From NCBI GenBank assembly GCA_017390825.1, contig JAFPAK010000222.1, positions 1 to 5,385 on the forward strand: a DNA stretch of 5,385 nucleotides. Direction: 5' to 3'. A program made the position numbers and the translations under genes. Below, one piece after another: positions 1 through 5,384 of the stretch; position 1 is the stretch's first letter, and every line of letters starts with the position of its first letter. This DNA comes from Clostridia bacterium (GTDB lineage: Bacteria > Bacillota_A > Clostridia > Oscillospirales > Acutalibacteraceae). The notes beneath the pieces are model-generated. The model was not told the origin of the DNA and did not search any database. It was given only the letters and a program-made list of their open reading frames with translations.

Positions 1-1303
1 CACTTACAAGCTTCGGTGAGTTTCCAATTACGTCGGTTGCAATTTTTACAAGAAAATCTCTGTCGTTAATTTGCTTCAAATCCTCTTTTTCAACAATCAC
101 AACAGGATCGGAGTCAGCCTCCCACATTCTTGCAATCAGTTTCTTTGCCGTAGAAGTATTGATAACCTCATCACTGATTAAGTCAGACAGTTTTGCCATA
201 TTTGCTGCTGAAATCGGGCAGTAAAATATCTCCGCCGTGTTCAGCCTTGCAACCTCTCCCACAAGAAGATTTGCAACAACCTTTGGAGTTTTTGCAAGTG
301 TCGCAACCTTTTCAAAATAATCCGCTATATCCATATCAGAAATAATCTTTTCGCTGATATAAGCCGATATTCCGTACTTTTCCATATACTTCTTTTTTCT
401 CGCATCCGGAAGCTCGGGAATTGTAGTTTTAATTTTTTCAATTTTTTCATCAGACAGTTCTATCGGCGGAAGGTCGGGGTCCGGAAAATATCTGTAGTCG
501 TTTGCATTTTCTTTGCCTCTCATAGAATATGTTTTACCGGTATCGGCATCAAATTTTCTTGTTTCCTGAACAATTTCTTCCCCTTCCGCAATTATTTCAA
601 TTTGCCTCTTATATTCATACTCAATAGCCTTAACCACAAACTGAAAAGAGTTGATATTTTTCATTTCTGTTCGTGTGCCGAATTTCTCCGTACCTTTTTC
701 ACGAACCGAAAGATTGACATCGCATCTGAAAGAACCTTCATTCATTTTACAGTCGGATATTCCGGTATAAAGGATAATGGCACGAAGCTTTTGCAGATAT
801 GCTTTAGCTTCCTCCGCCGAGCGTATATCCGGCTCGGAAACTATTTCAATAAGCGGAACACCACAGCGGTTGCAGTCAATCATAGTTCCGTGAATATCAT
901 CATGCACAAGCTTTCCGGCATCCTCCTCTATATGAATTCTCGTTATACCGATTCGCTTTGAACCTGATTCTGTTTCAATATCAAGATAACCGTGTTCGCA
1001 CAAAGGCAGGTCAAACTGACTAATCTGATATGCTTTGGGAAGGTCCGGATAGAAGTAGTTTTTTCTGTCCTGCTTTGAAAAGTTTGCTATTTTGCAGTTT
1101 GTTGCAAGTCCTGCTTTAACTGCATATTCGACAACCTTATCATTTAAGACGGGCAGCGTTCCCGGCAAGCCCATACATACCGGACAGGTATGGCTGTTAG
1201 GTTCTGCTCCAAAGCTTGTTTCACAATTGCAGAAAATCTTTGTTTTTGTTTTGAGTTCGACATGAACCTCAAGACCTATTACCATTTCATACTCTTTAGC
1301 CAT
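1..1303 (-). CDS. gatB: Asp-tRNA(Asn)/Glu-tRNA(Gln) amidotransferase subunit B, 3' end outside the window
   Basis: GatB binds the misacylated tRNA, phosphorylates the side-chain carboxylate with ATP and amidates it with ammonia from GatA. The window holds 434 codons of an expected 475-480, and the frame runs open off the left edge, so this is a cut gene, not a broken one. GLEVHVEL (10-17) carries E12 and H14, and IEEDAGK (125-131) carries E126 and E127. These match the active-site residues E10, H12, E124 and E125 of Staphylococcus aureus GatB. RKNYFYPDLPKAYQISQ (80-96) and the downstream DYRYFPDPDL motif are family signatures. Four cysteines (C25, C27, C40, C43) form a zinc-site pattern found in some GatB proteins and absent from the S. 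aureus one. The C-terminal part enters the helical YqeY-like tRNA-contacting domain. The start is set by GAGGAGGTG at 1320-1312 and by the TAATG overlap with gatA. Confidence 0.98.
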   Translation of the reverse strand, partial: MAKEYEMVIGLEVHVELKTKTKIFCNCETSFGAEPNSHTCPVCMGLPGTLPVLNDKVVEYAVKAGLATNCKIANFSKQDRKNYFYPDLPKAYQISQFDLPLCEHGYLDIETESGSKRIGITRIHIEEDAGKLVHDDIHGTMIDCNRCGVPLIEIVSEPDIRSAEEAKAYLQKLRAIILYTGISDCKMNEGSFRCDVNLSVREKGTEKFGTRTEMKNINSFQFVVKAIEYEYKRQIEIIAEGEEIVQETRKFDADTGKTYSMRGKENANDYRYFPDPDLPPIELSDEKIEKIKTTIPELPDARKKKYMEKYGISAYISEKIISDMDIADYFEKVATLAKTPKVVANLLVGEVARLNTAEIFYCPISAANMAKLSDLISDEVINTSTAKKLIARMWEADSDPVVIVEKEDLKQINDRDFLVKIATDVIGNSPKLVS

Positions 1304-2745
1304 TACTTTGACACCTCCTCTAAAACAGCAGCAGCTCTGTACAGCATCTTTTCGGAAAATGCAGGACCTATAAGCTGTGCTCCTACGGGCATATTTCCTT
1401 CACCCCTGCCGCACGGTACGCTGATTGCAGGAACACCCGCGATATTAACCGGAACACTATAAGCATCTCCCATATACATTTCAAGCGGATTTTTACTTTT
1501 CTCACCAAGCTTATATGCAACAGTAGGTGCTACGGGCGATAAAATGAAATCACACTTTTTAAAGCTGTTTTCAAAGTCATTCATTACAATACTTCTGATT
1601 TGCAATGCTTTTTTATAATACGCATCATAATATCCCGATGAAAGAGCAAAGGTTCCAAGCATAATTCTCCTTTTAACCTCTTTTCCAAAGCCTTCACTGC
1701 GGCTCTTTTTGTAAAGGTCATGGATATTCTCAAAGCAGTCTGTTCTGTATCCATAACGAACTCCATCAAAACGGGATAAGTTTGACGAAGCTTCTGCAGA
1801 AGAAATAATATAGTAAGCCGCAAGTGCGTTATCAATTGACGGCATTGAAATATCTACGATTTCTGCGCCCTCGTTTTTCATTCGCTCCGCTGCTTCAAAT
1901 ACAGCAGTTTTAACATCGTGCGAAATACCCTCACCAAAAAATTCTTTAGGCAGTCCGATTTTCATTCCCTTTATACCTTTTCCAATATCCCCGGTAAAAT
2001 CGTCCTGACTTTTATAAATGTTGGTAGCATCTCTTTTGTCTGCGCAGGAAATTGCATTTAAAACAATGGCATTGTCTTTTACGGTAGAAGTAAGCGGACC
2101 AATCTGATCGAGTGATGATGCAAACGCAACAAGTCCGTATCGTGATACCGTTCCGTATGTCGGTTTCATACCTACAACACCGCAAAATGATGCAGGCTGA
2201 CGGATGGAACCACCTGTATCAGAGCCAAGAGTAAATGCCGCTTCCTTTGCCGCAACACAGGCAGCACTTCCACCCGAGCTTCCGCCCGGCACACGGGTAA
2301 TATCAGCCGGATTTTTCGTTGTCTTAAATGCTGAGTTTTCCGTTGTAGAACCCATTGCAAACTCGTCCATATTAAGTTTTCCAAGAATAACTACATCTGC
2401 CTTTTTCAGCTCTTCTATAACGCACGCATCATACGGAGGAATGTAGTTTTCGAGCATTTTTGAAGCACAGGTTGTTTTTACTCCTTTTGTACAAATGTTA
2501 TCTTTGATTGCACACGGAATACCGGCAAGCGGTTCAAGGCTTTCGCCGGAGAGTCTCTTTTTATCAACCGCTTCTGCCTTTTTAAGTGCGGTTTCAAAGT
2601 CGGTTGTAATATAAGCTCCTATCTCGGAATCTGTATTTTCTATTTGAGCAATATAAGCATCTGTAAGTTCTCTGGATGAATATTCACCTTTCTTTAGCGA
2701 TTCTATATGCTCCGAAACACTTCTTTTTATTAAATCTAAACTCAT
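1303..2745 (-). CDS. gatA: Asp-tRNA(Asn)/Glu-tRNA(Gln) amidotransferase subunit A
   Basis: GatA is the glutaminase subunit of GatCAB. It hydrolyses glutamine and passes ammonia through a tunnel to GatB, where Asp- or Glu-tRNA is amidated. The protein has 480 residues, close to the family's usual 485, and is complete. It belongs to the amidase signature family. The Ser-cisSer-Lys triad is intact: K81 in GIPCAIKDN (75-83), S156 in GGSSGGSAA (154-162), and S180 in GSDTGGSIRQPA (174-185). The conserved GVVGMKPTYG and SSLDQIGPLT blocks follow. The chosen ATG has GGAGGG at 2758-2753, a 7-nt spacing, and gives the standard MSLDLI-type N-terminus. It starts 16 nt after the aspS-gatC stop. Its TAA overlaps the gatB ATG by one base, so translational coupling with gatB is likely. 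The order gatC (as a fusion), gatA, gatB is the common Firmicute order. Confidence 0.98.
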   Translation of the reverse strand: MSLDLIKRSVSEHIESLKKGEYSSRELTDAYIAQIENTDSEIGAYITTDFETALKKAEAVDKKRLSGESLEPLAGIPCAIKDNICTKGVKTTCASKMLENYIPPYDACVIEELKKADVVILGKLNMDEFAMGSTTENSAFKTTKNPADITRVPGGSSGGSAACVAAKEAAFTLGSDTGGSIRQPASFCGVVGMKPTYGTVSRYGLVAFASSLDQIGPLTSTVKDNAIVLNAISCADKRDATNIYKSQDDFTGDIGKGIKGMKIGLPKEFFGEGISHDVKTAVFEAAERMKNEGAEIVDISMPSIDNALAAYYIISSAEASSNLSRFDGVRYGYRTDCFENIHDLYKKSRSEGFGKEVKRRIMLGTFALSSGYYDAYYKKALQIRSIVMNDFENSFKKCDFILSPVAPTVAYKLGEKSKNPLEMYMGDAYSVPVNIAGVPAISVPCGRGEGNMPVGAQLIGPAFSEKMLYRAAAVLEEVSK

Positions 2746-2761: not shown

Positions 2762-4855
2762 TTAATTTTCTACCACACGGGGAACTGTGATATATCCGTC
2801 TGTTTTTGTTGGAGAAGCTGCAAGAAGCTCATCTCTCTCCACATTATGAATAATTACTTCATCATCGTGAAAAACATTGCTTATCGGAATAAGATGTTCC
2901 TTCGCCTTTATATTTGATGTATCAACCCTTGTGATTGTATCTGCAAATGCTATGATAGAATTCATATCCTCTGCGTAGCTTATTTTATCTTCATCTGTAA
3001 GGTACAGACATGCAAGGTTTGCTATATTTTCAACATCAATTGTGATTTCTTTTTCTTTCTTTTGTTCCGACAATGCAGAATTTTCTTCCGCCTGTACAGC
3101 TTCTGTAAGACCAAGTACATCAAGCTGAGCTTTATCTACAAAATCAGGTGCTCCGGTAAGGGGACAAGACGCATCCTTAATCTTCGGAAAAGCAATAATA
3201 TCACGAAGAGAATCGGCGCCAACCATAAGCATTACAAAACGGTCAAGTCCAAATGCAAAACCGCCGTGAGGTGGAGTTCCGTATCTGAAAGCATTTACCA
3301 TAAAGCCAAAACGCTCATCAATTGTCTTTTTGTCAAACCCCAAGGCTTCAAACATTTTCTCCTGCACACGTCTGTCGTGAATTCTGATTGAACCTGAACC
3401 AAGCTCGATTCCGTTAAGCACTACATCGTATGCTTGTGCCCTCACTCTTCCGGGATCTGTCGTAAGATACTGTACATCCTCCGGATATGGCATTGTAAAC
3501 GGATGATGTGTCGCAACATATCTATTTTCCGCTTCGGAATATTCAAACTGCGGAAAATCAATTACAAACAGGAATTTATAATCATTTTTTCTGCGCAGTC
3601 CAAGCATATCACCCAAATCAAGTCTGAGTCCGCCAAGCGTTCTTCTCACAACATCAAGCTTATCAGCACAAAACAGTATAAAGTCACCGGGCTTTGCTTT
3701 GACAGCATCAAGCAATTCTTTCATTTCATCTTCAGTAAAATATTTTGTGAGAATAGAATATATTTCTCCGTTTTGCTTATATGCAATCCATGCCATACCC
3801 TTTGCACCGTAGCCCATTGCTTTTTCGGTTAAATTCTCAATGGTTGAACGTGTAAAGTCTGCCTGTCCGGTTACACATATCGCTCTTACATAGCCACCGC
3901 TTTGTGCAACCTTTTTAAACACGCTGAAGGAACATTTTTTTGCAATATCCGTAACATCAACAATCGGCAACTCAAATCTGATATCAGGCTTATCCGAGCC
4001 ATATACATCCATCGCTTCCTGCCAGGTCAGGCGCGGAAAGTCATAATGTATTTCCTTTCCCGTTGTCTCTTTATAGATATACTTAAACATTTTTTCAAGA
4101 TGATTTAAGATATCTTCCTGTTCTACAAAAGACATTTCCATATCAACCTGCGTAAATTCAGGCTGACGGTCTGCTCGTAGGTCTTCATCACGGAAGCATC
4201 TCGCAACCTGATAATATTTATCAACACCACCAACCATCAAAAGCTGTTTGAATATTTGAGGCGATTGAGGAAGTGCATAAAATGTTCCCGGATTCACACG
4301 GCTCGGCACAAGATAATCTCTTGCTCCTTCCGGTGTTGATTTTGTAAGCATAGGTGTTTCAACATATAGAAACCCGTTATTATCAAGATAGTCCGATGCA
4401 GCCTTTTGAACTTTATATCTGAATTTCAGATTGTTATAAAGCTCCGGTCTGCGAATATCCAAAAATCTGTATTTCAATCGAAGCTCTTCACGAACTTTAC
4501 TTCCGTCATCAATCGAATATGGTAAACTGTCCGCCTGTGAAATAAGTTCAATTTTATCTGCAGCAAGTTCTATTGTTCCGGTAGCAATCTTTAGGTTAAT
4601 TGTTTCTTCGTCTCTTTCTCTGACCGTGCCTTTTATAGACACTACCGACTGCAAACGCAGCCTTTCGATTAAGCTAAACTCATCAGCGCTCACTTTACCT
4701 TCATCCACAACAACCTGTAAAACGCCTTCACGGTCACGAAGATCAATAAATATGATTCCGCCCATATCACGCTTCGTAAGAACCCACCCCGAACATATCT
4801 GCTGCGTTCCTATGTGTTCAGGTCTTAAAAGGCCACAATATTCTGTTCTCTTCAT
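2762..4855 (-). CDS. aspS/gatC: Aspartyl-tRNA synthetase fused to amidotransferase subunit GatC (AspRS-GatC)
   Basis: This cytoplasmic protein of 697 residues has two parts. Residues 1 to about 583 form a full bacterial AspRS, matching the usual length of about 590. An OB-fold anticodon-binding domain covers about 1-105. The class II core carries motif 1 (GFLYVETP, 161-168), the flipping loop (TKSTPEGARDYLVPSR, 171-186), QSPQ (197-200) and motif 2 (FRDEDLRADRQPEFTQ, 221-236, with R222 and E224). A GAD insertion lies at about 300-415, and motif 3 contains GLDRF (536-540). After a charged linker (about 584-603), residues 604-697 are a complete GatC. The enzyme activates Asp and attaches it to tRNA, and the GatC part is the belt subunit of GatCAB. 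ATG is preceded by AGGAGG with 9-nt spacing. gatA follows after 16 nt. Free-standing AspRS and GatC are the norm. Residue 31, a tRNA(Asp)/tRNA(Asn) discrimination position, is Met, so specificity cannot be read from it alone. Confidence 0.97.
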   Translation of the reverse strand: MKRTEYCGLLRPEHIGTQQICSGWVLTKRDMGGIIFIDLRDREGVLQVVVDEGKVSADEFSLIERLRLQSVVSIKGTVRERDEETINLKIATGTIELAADKIELISQADSLPYSIDDGSKVREELRLKYRFLDIRRPELYNNLKFRYKVQKAASDYLDNNGFLYVETPMLTKSTPEGARDYLVPSRVNPGTFYALPQSPQIFKQLLMVGGVDKYYQVARCFRDEDLRADRQPEFTQVDMEMSFVEQEDILNHLEKMFKYIYKETTGKEIHYDFPRLTWQEAMDVYGSDKPDIRFELPIVDVTDIAKKCSFSVFKKVAQSGGYVRAICVTGQADFTRSTIENLTEKAMGYGAKGMAWIAYKQNGEIYSILTKYFTEDEMKELLDAVKAKPGDFILFCADKLDVVRRTLGGLRLDLGDMLGLRRKNDYKFLFVIDFPQFEYSEAENRYVATHHPFTMPYPEDVQYLTTDPGRVRAQAYDVVLNGIELGSGSIRIHDRRVQEKMFEALGFDKKTIDERFGFMVNAFRYGTPPHGGFAFGLDRFVMLMVGADSLRDIIAFPKIKDASCPLTGAPDFVDKAQLDVLGLTEAVQAEENSALSEQKKEKEITIDVENIANLACLYLTDEDKISYAEDMNSIIAFADTITRVDTSNIKAKEHLIPISNVFHDDEVIIHNVERDELLAASPTKTDGYITVPRVVEN
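2765..3046 (-). other. gatC: GatC domain of the AspRS-GatC fusion
   Basis: Residues 604-697 of the fusion align with free GatC from end to end. IANLACLYL (611-619) matches the conserved IANLA-L helix, DMNSIIAFADTI (630-641) the second helix, and DELLAASP-(3)-DGYITVPRVVEN (675-697) the conserved 'NAP...GYF-VP-V' tail. At about 94 residues it is the full length of a normal GatC. GatC has no catalytic residues: it wraps the GatA-GatB interface and stabilises the heterotrimer. There is no in-frame ATG or GTG between the AspRS core and this domain. The first internal Met (631) falls inside it, too late to start a complete GatC. One in-frame TTG (Leu595, 3073-3071) lies in the linker with only a weak purine stretch ahead, so independent initiation is possible but unlikely. 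Confidence 0.93.
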
Positions 4856-4921
4856 AGATTTATTCCTCCTGAATCTTTACTTATATGCTGTGCCGTGAAA
4901 TGGATTTGTAAACGCACAAAA

Positions 4922-4942
4922 GGTGTCACCTAAGTAACAACC
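4922..4942 (-). terminator. Possible second terminator-like hairpin after the main leader terminator
   Basis: TGTTAC (4939-4934) can pair with GTGACA (4929-4924) with one wobble around a TTAG loop. Two further G-C pairs (4942-4941 with 4923-4922) form if T4940 is bulged. A run of four T (4921-4918) follows directly. The hairpin is short and its T run is brief, so alone it would be weak. It may reinforce the upstream hairpin, whose own U tract is interrupted, or it may be chance. Confidence 0.3.
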
Positions 4943-4988
4943 CCTATAGAACACAGTCATATTTTTAAATATTCAGCATTCTACAGGG
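4932..4988 (-). terminator. Leader terminator hairpin competing with the antiterminator
   Basis: CCCTGTAGAA (4988-4979) pairs with TTCTATAGGG (4951-4942) over 10 bp, including one G-U pair. An inner AT-rich hairpin, ATATT/AATAT (4972-4959), sits within the large loop. The 5' arm reuses the bases that form the 3' side of the antiterminator (4988-4982), so the two structures exclude each other as expected for a transcriptional T-box. The following tract, GTTGTTACTT (4941-4932), is U-rich but broken by other bases, so termination may be less efficient than at a textbook site. A second hairpin follows immediately and may contribute. Confidence 0.75.
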
Positions 4989-5017
4989 CGATTGCTGTAC
5001 TCGCGGTGCCACCTGTA
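4982..5017 (-). promoter_or_regulatory. T-box antiterminator with conserved T-box sequence
   Basis: AGGTGGCACCGCG at 5014-5002 matches the T-box consensus AGGGTGGNACCGCG apart from one G missing in the initial G run. The helix is TACAGG (5017-5012) with CCTGTA (4987-4982), then the 7-nt bulge TGGCACC, then GCGA (5004-5001) with TCGC (4991-4988), capped by a 9-nt loop. The bulge starts TGGC. Its C can pair with a G discriminator base next to the tRNA CCA end, and G73 is the usual discriminator of bacterial tRNA(Asn) and tRNA(Asp). Confidence 0.93.
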
Positions 5018-5102
5018 TTTTTTCTCATTAACATTGCCGATTGACGCACGGCATACGGCGCACCTACTAAAATTTCTTCTTTCAGATTGCAGCTCGAAAA
5101 GT

Positions 5103-5105
5103 GTT
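5103..5105 (-). promoter_or_regulatory. T-box specifier triplet AAC (asparagine)
   Basis: The specifier loop has the 5' strand AGAAGTA (5176-5170) and the 3' strand GAATAACA (5109-5102). AGTA on one side and GAA on the other form the usual loop E/S-turn. In the B. subtilis glyQS leader the 3' strand reads GAA, one base, the specifier GGC, then A. The same register here gives GAA, T, AAC, A. AAC is an asparagine codon and would pair with the GUU anticodon of tRNA(Asn). No aspartate codon (GAC or GAU) occurs in the loop. The assignment rests on a manual alignment and fold. Confidence 0.85.
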
Positions 5106-5210
5106 ATTCATACGGGACCGGGACATGGCTTCCACCATCCCATGCTCGCTATACCCGGCTTATCCGTATTACTTCTCTTTTCTCAAACGCTTTTAACTTT
5201 TAAGTTTTTA

Positions 5211-5384
5211 TCAATCGTGAGTCGTTGTATTCTGATTGTACTCACTTGCCGGTTTTTCATCTCTGTCAAGAAATGCTTTCTCATAAAGCGGATCAATCTC
5301 CGGTGTCCTGACCTGCATTTTAGGAAGTAAATCAGTAAAATCTATACTCTTTACAAAGTTTTCAGTTTGCTTTTTATCTGCCAT
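5211..5384 (-). CDS. Unrecognised small hydrophilic protein, or 3' end of a longer gene cut by the window edge
   Basis: An open frame of 57 codons begins with an ATG at 5384 and ends at a TGA at 5211, directly followed by an in-phase TAA. The peptide starts MADKKQTENF and ends QNTTTHD. It is acidic (12 Asp/Glu against 8 Lys/Arg), with no membrane segment, signal peptide, Cys pair or motif that I recognise. Only one base lies upstream of the ATG inside the window, so no ribosome binding site can be seen, and the frame may continue further upstream as part of a longer gene. It stops about 20 nt before Stem I of the T-box leader, and no terminator is visible between them. It may therefore be the preceding gene, with the aspS promoter inside its 3' end. 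No function is assigned. Confidence 0.45.
   Translation of the reverse strand: MADKKQTENFVKSIDFTDLLPKMQVRTPEIDPLYEKAFLDRDEKPASEYNQNTTTHD

Follow-up and report, generated by a model that had tools for sequence, protein, structure and literature searches.

AspRS, GatCAB, and tRNA(Asn) come together in the Asn-transamidosomes of Thermus, Pseudomonas, and Helicobacter, where the partners are separate chains. Another described system is that of Clostridium acetobutylicum, which has three AspRSs, an extra GatCAB, and redundant routes to Asn (available text of PMC4206432, PMC4052509, and PMC2494555). According to the same portions of these papers, its tRNA-dependent amidation is controlled by a T-box, which reads both tRNA(Asn) and tRNA(Glu) via overlapping codons. 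An additional AspRS has also been described in bacteria that use both routes to Asn (available text of PMC4206432). Finally, NCBIfam includes a model, NF009460 (PRK12820), for a "bifunctional aspartyl-tRNA synthetase / Asp/Glu-tRNA amidotransferase subunit C." By its name, this model describes a single protein whose parts are ordered like those that we report here.

We analyzed a 5,385-nucleotide stretch of DNA from a Clostridia bacterium of the family Acutalibacteraceae (contig JAFPAK010000222.1), which we will call the window. We use type A for the window's kind of AspRS-GatC fusion and type B for a second, distant AspRS-GatC type. Loci have L labels and genomes have G labels; G001 is the genome that contains L001.

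AspRS and GatC in a single reading frame

The original prediction was that the window encodes an AspRS joined in frame to GatC by a charged linker of about 20 residues, and that gatA and gatB follow without a separate gatC. Both the protein and the operon turn out to be as predicted (Table 1). The fused frame has 697 codons before its stop, and both parts of the protein match their families at scores over the cut-offs. Pfam finds the OB fold (residues 22-105), tRNA-synt_2 (123-559), and GAD (313-407, 78.2 bits), followed by GatC (PF02686, residues 619-691, 51.1 bits versus a cut-off of 23). No stop codon or frameshift separates AspRS from GatC: the window's frame is intact, and the same frame is read in 18 loci (see below). 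Downstream, gatA starts 16 bases past the fusion gene, and gatB overlaps gatA by one base. Open reading frames and profile matches in the window gave no separate gatC between the fusion gene and gatA/gatB.

We also considered a single AlphaFold2 model of the fusion protein. The model is of middling quality (mean pLDDT 68.2, pTM 0.61) and is too weak for geometry. The linker and the start of GatC (residues 587-620) have pLDDT below 50, as does most of the GatC part.

Table 1. Features of the window
Feature	Position	Strand	Details
T-box leader	4981..5196	-	RF00230, 90.3 bits, E 2e-20
Specifier codon AAC (Asn)	5103..5105	-	Specifier column of the Rfam alignment
Conserved antiterminator T-box motif AGGTGGCACCGCGAG	5000..5014	-	Sequence and Rfam alignment
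Terminator-like hairpin	4942..4988	-	Folding; shares bases with the antiterminator; poor U run after it
Shine-Dalgarno AGGAGG	4865..4870	-	9 nt ahead of the fusion gene's ATG
AspRS-GatC fusion gene	2762..4855	-	ATG start, 697 aa plus stop, no internal stop (ORF reading)
AspRS part (residues 1-584)	3104..4855	-	Bacterial type with GAD domain; TIGR00459 (aspS_bact, NCBIfam) 743.7 bits, cut-off 373.85, residues 1-582; NF001750 (NCBIfam) 811.1 bits, over cut-off
Linker (residues 585-605)	3041..3103	-	About 21 residues, charged, quick to diverge; dN/dS 0.585 vs L003
GatC part (residues 606-697)	2765..3040	-	TIGR00135 (gatC, NCBIfam) 68.6 bits, cut-off 47.1, residues 606-696
gatA	1303..2745	-	480 aa; TIGR00132 635.2 bits, cut-off 481.1
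gatB	2..1303	-	434 aa visible, leaves the window; NF004014 611.6 bits, cut-off 414

Conservation of the type A fusion

We found relatives of the fusion by scanning one genome per species. The fusion protein from L001 is 100% identical to the window's over the AspRS and GatC parts, and L002, L003, and L005-L015 have the same fused architecture at 56-97% identity. With L153, L154, L161, and L162, the type A fused frame is found in 18 loci. (L004 ends at a contig edge and is outside this count.) A database search found 126 proteins that match the linker-GatC part at E<=1e-3, and the window's own database entry represents 184 contigs. Among the best 120 of the 126 matches, every named protein is labeled aspartate--tRNA ligase. 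Because these database entries give the fusion proteins only this name, gatC looks missing from such genomes.

In a codon comparison of the window with L003, dN/dS was 0.056 for the AspRS part and 0.10 for the GatC part, versus the far higher value for the linker (Table 1). The low value for GatC implies that it is under purifying selection. (Against more distant loci, dN/dS for GatC was 0.285-0.445 where it could be computed.) Both enzymes are maintained while the linker drifts. Overall, these results confirm that the fusion is real and conserved.

A T-box leader with an Asn specifier

The original prediction had the gene order of the operon right but overlooked the T-box, with its AAC specifier, ahead of the fusion gene. 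The window's leader scores 90.3 bits, which is below the gathering score of RF00230 (93). Nevertheless, its homology to T-boxes is not in doubt, because 8 of 17 type A leaders reach the gathering score. The region around the terminator-like hairpin (4925-4999) has a predicted folding energy of -23.2 kcal/mol (z -3.78). A consensus terminator scan of the window found none, and we did not find a sigma-70-like promoter in the window either.

The specifier is AAC in all 17 type A leaders that we checked (the window, L001-L003, L005-L015, L161, and L162), which fits the role of the gene. Sixteen of these were read from the specifier column of the Rfam alignment and one (L013) by pattern; L153 and L154 are outside the count. 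As a control, we asked if the Rfam column agrees with the downstream gene for other T-boxes, and it does for 6/6 of those whose gene is named by family (ileS, AUC; pheS, UUC, twice; valS, GUA; thrS, ACC; and leuA, CUC). Three more aligned T-boxes (L092, L094, and L112) lack a named gene and are outside this control. (A specifier rule based on a regular expression missed the leaders of pheS in L096 and L101 and of trpB in L109, and we used the Rfam column instead.) Since AAC is found in every one of the 17 leaders, uncharged tRNA(Asn) is the probable inducer of the operon.

In the nine genomes that we compared, the type A gene is always preceded by a T-box (9/9). No T-box was found upstream of standalone aspS (0/8) or asnS (0/5) in these nine genomes, among the matches listed (at most 101 candidates in each of G001, G005, G006, and G012). 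As the T-box with AAC lies ahead of type A and none was listed ahead of standalone aspS, it seems that the type A operon answers to tRNA(Asn) and that the standalone aspS does not.

There are other features near these leaders. Just ahead of the T-box leader is the end of a small open frame with some 57 codons (MADKKQTENF..., 5211-5384 on the minus strand of the window). The L006 locus has a further T-box with a different specifier (L006:9083-9333(+), 82.7 bits). Some type A leaders (L009-L011, L014, and L015) read GAAC, which the window's leader does not.

Three kinds of AspRS and the origin of the fusions

G001 encodes three AspRSs: the type A fusion, a standalone AspRS of 604 amino acids, and a type B fusion (L081, 692 amino acids) with its own gatA and gatB. 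Type A is thus an additional AspRS beside the standalone one. The original prediction was correct that the AspRS is fused, but it overlooked that in G001 this AspRS is an extra, beside the standalone AspRS and type B. It had also proposed looking in the genome for a second aspS or a free gatC; G001 has the former, as the standalone gene and the type B fusion, and has no match to the latter. In G006, type A and type B share one contig, which argues against a binning error.

An unrooted tree with 61 AspRS rows groups all 17 from type A into one clade (support 100/98). Five type B fusions form a separate clade (100/99) that excludes two type B rows without a fusion, and 11 standalone AspRSs from the same genomes are placed elsewhere. 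The simplest reading of this tree is that type A and type B are two independent fusions, with loss as the less simple alternative.

The fusion had been predicted to arise by loss of a stop codon in an ancestral operon, and type B illustrates how this may have happened. At L086 (G002), the type B aspS ends with a stop, and gatC starts in frame one codon behind. Including L086, gatC lies in frame behind the aspS stop in 7 of the 13 unfused type B loci that we inspected. By a hand tally, type B AspRS is present in 31 of the 80 genomes of G001's family: five are fused, 12 have a match that continues into GatC past one or two in-frame stops, and 14 match over AspRS only. (We checked 15 of these 31 sequences, and all of them have a higher score against type B than against type A.) Because gatC so often follows the stop codon of aspS in frame in the unfused relatives, loss of that stop is a credible and likely route to the type B fusion. 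For type A, no unfused relative was found in the loci and genomes searched; type A is fused in all three of the family genomes that carry it.

Type B loci have some other features of their own. Their gatA is short, at 393-399 amino acids (L081:4968-6149(-), L082, L083, L085, and L086), and in L081 it matches TIGR00132 from position 63 only, at 273.5 bits (below the cut-off of 481.1). The leaders of the type B fusions (L081, L082, L083, L085, L163-L168, and L156) are T-box-like but low-scoring, at 41-46 bits in G001, G003, G005, and G006. They contain GGGAAC, in which GAA and AAC overlap, like the two-codon T-box described for C. acetobutylicum. Elsewhere, G002, which carries type A and an unfused type B, has yet another gatCAB set, its third. 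This set includes a free gatC and lies next to a five-tRNA cluster that contains tRNA-Asp (L087:2744-5920(-) and 6148-6604(+)). Finally, L155 (3296-5197(+), in G324) was rejected as a candidate AspRS fusion. Its frame, of about 633-635 amino acids, joins GatC to GatA, which is another fusion within the pathway.

Gene content of genomes with fusions

We then considered what else these genomes encode. (They are mostly metagenome bins, and absences from them are soft.) The type A fusion is complete in 14 genomes. A free GatC is matched in only two of these, G002 and G005, and in none of the other 12. AsnRS is found over the cut-off in 10 of the 14, and not in G001, G002, G003, or G005. Hence G001 and G003 have neither AsnRS over the cut-off nor a free GatC match.

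Within the 80 genomes of G001's family, GatC is over the cut-off in 48. It is fused to AspRS in seven (G001, G442, G474, G484, G487, G495, and G505), and we found no free GatC in any of these seven. Four of them (G001, G442, G495, and G505) lack AsnRS over the cut-off.

A second AspRS, of type A or type B, is present in 22 of the 28 family genomes without AsnRS versus 11 of the 52 with it (p = 8.8e-7, Fisher test on counts tallied by hand and ignoring relatedness). This association rests on type B, because AsnRS is present in all 11 of the examined genomes that carry type A without type B (G007-G015, G474, and G484). Most genomes can make free Asn as well, as asnB is over the cut-off in 10/12 genomes and asnA in 2/12. 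Type A is best seen as an additional route that is controlled by tRNA(Asn). In G001 and G003, there are best seen to be two fused routes, of which type A is one, and no other route was detected.

Proposed function of the fusion operon

We suggest that tying an extra AspRS to GatC in one protein would cause GatA and GatB to assemble on the synthetase. The AspRS part would load tRNA(Asn) with Asp, and GatCAB, tethered alongside, would amidate the resulting Asp-tRNA(Asn) to Asn-tRNA(Asn). The T-box, via AAC, would read uncharged tRNA(Asn) and switch the cassette on when Asn-tRNA is short, and the standalone AspRS would serve tRNA(Asp). We think it likely that the fusion operon makes Asn-tRNA(Asn) with tethered enzymes and is controlled by tRNA(Asn). 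The mischarging by type A AspRS, the assembly of the complex, the channelling, and the induction are what we infer from the sequences. The original prediction also linked the fusion to tRNA-dependent formation of Asn, and our results support this. The fusion may form a stable complex, with two GatCAB units per AspRS dimer as the original prediction had it, and may protect Asp-tRNA(Asn).

A stronger reading is that this is an obligate covalent transamidosome: without AsnRS and free GatC, all of the Asn in proteins would be made on an AspRS-GatC fusion, and the fusion would have arisen at least twice, under the control of tRNA(Asn) charging. On this reading we are evenly divided. It applies to G001, which has a fusion that matches the one in the window, to G003, and to four genomes among the 80 of the family, G001 being one of the four.

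Another view of the fused AspRS is that it is discriminating and mainly charges tRNA(Asp). The fusion would then only fix the co-expression of AspRS and GatC, and some other enzyme (type B, where present) would do the misacylating. The relevant evidence includes position 31. In PDB alignments, the AspRS(Asp/Asn) of P. aeruginosa has His31, while the AspRSs of T. thermophilus and E. coli have leucine there (Leu30 in E. coli). In mutational work, His31 is reported to favor tRNA(Asn). Position 31 is His in 22/22 type B sequences, and type B looks non-discriminating. It is Met in all 19 type A sequences (including the window's), and since Met31 is neither His nor Leu, type A may be of either kind by its sequence. 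(At the second known position, type A has Glu or Asp.) Met31 in place of His, the presence in G001 of a type B that does have His31, and the 11 genomes in which type A alone never accompanies the loss of AsnRS are all consistent with charging of tRNA(Asp). But standalone AspRSs with Leu31 are already present (10 of 11 from the same genomes; the other, L143, has Met), and the T-box specifier is AAC rather than an Asp codon. On balance, we consider a tRNA(Asp)-charging fusion unlikely. As for the tRNAs themselves, a search for U1-A72 in tRNA(Asn) gave no matches in 10 genomes with an anticodon-arm pattern that is almost surely too strict, and no tRNA(Asn) genes were found in the 36 loci that we scanned.

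Could the working complex be non-covalent, either because the polypeptide is cleaved or because an internal start yields GatC as well? The linker evolves quickly and has low predicted confidence, and among 18 type A genes there are 6 in which a start codon in frame, located within the linker or close to it, is preceded by 4-5 bases that match the Shine-Dalgarno sequence. However, the window's linker offers a single in-frame start, a TTG that lacks any such match, whereas AGGAGG precedes the fusion gene's own start. Internal start codons are also entirely missing from 5 of 9 type B fusions. (We scored 27 genes from the 19 type A and nine type B; L162 is outside this set.) Free GatC from an internal start is thus unsupported in the window, and we consider a non-covalent complex quite improbable. 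We expect one chain of about 79 kDa. Given this TTG and the rarity of free GatC matches in genomes with type A, the permanent link that had been predicted is probably obligatory.

GatCAB can also amidate Glu-tRNA(Gln), in bacteria without GlnRS (available text of PMC4206432), which raises the idea that the cassette serves Gln and that AspRS is a passenger. Indeed, 5 of the 14 type A genomes have GlnRS below the cut-off (three) or no match (two). But in the other nine GlnRS is over the cut-off (in pieces, in G001), which suggests that GatCAB is not needed for Gln there, and the specifier is AAC. A role in Gln formation seems highly improbable. Lastly, a sequencing or assembly artefact is ruled out for practical purposes by the shared frame in independent assemblies (59-100% identity) and by the dN/dS values, and we found nothing in its favor.

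Significance

Some gut Clostridia have combined the enzyme that loads Asp onto tRNA and a subunit of the enzyme that converts this Asp to Asn into one protein, from a gene that is apparently on when Asn-charged tRNA is short. So far, the debate on whether AspRS hands Asp-tRNA(Asn) directly to GatCAB, and on the reason for transient complexes, has drawn on separate proteins. A fusion that occurs in nature, apparently made twice and without a fallback free GatC, could offer a stable 1:1 particle for structural and kinetic studies. It also suggests that permanent attachment is tolerated or favored by selection. Furthermore, type A (with Met31, an Asn T-box, and usually AsnRS beside it) and type B (with His31 and AsnRS loss) occur in one genome, so a division of labor among three AspRSs should be testable there.

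Comparison with known systems

The Asn-transamidosomes involve the same enzymes as the window, AspRS and GatCAB, and the same proposed substrate path. (PDB 3kfu and 4wj3/4wj4 were among the structure matches for this comparison.) The difference is that the window encodes AspRS and GatC as one chain. A mutant of Mycobacterium smegmatis makes a GatC-GatA fusion polypeptide (available text of PMC7541841). As in the window, GatC is joined in frame to a neighbor in the pathway, but the partner is different and the mutant was selected.

A bifunctional AspRS/GatC architecture had already been named in NF009460, which the original prediction overlooked while getting the architecture itself right. The window's protein falls short of this model: it scores 617.2 bits, below the cut-off of 1379, and it matches positions 24-633 of 723, in the AspRS part only. 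No protein reached this cut-off in the 299 genomes that we sampled from G001's phylum. We found no paper on an AspRS-GatC fusion in the open-licence literature, and subscription journals are mostly outside that search.

The C. acetobutylicum system resembles the window's cassette: in both, a T-box that recognizes Asn controls an operon, and both the AspRS and the GatCAB are extra. There, however, AspRS and GatC are unfused, with no fusion mentioned in the available text of those papers, and the T-box reads Glu too, whereas the window's triplet is in the context U-AAC-A. In sum, the unfused, T-box-controlled pathway of C. acetobutylicum and NCBIfam's bifunctional model were known already, and what is new here is the fused version, controlled by an AAC T-box.
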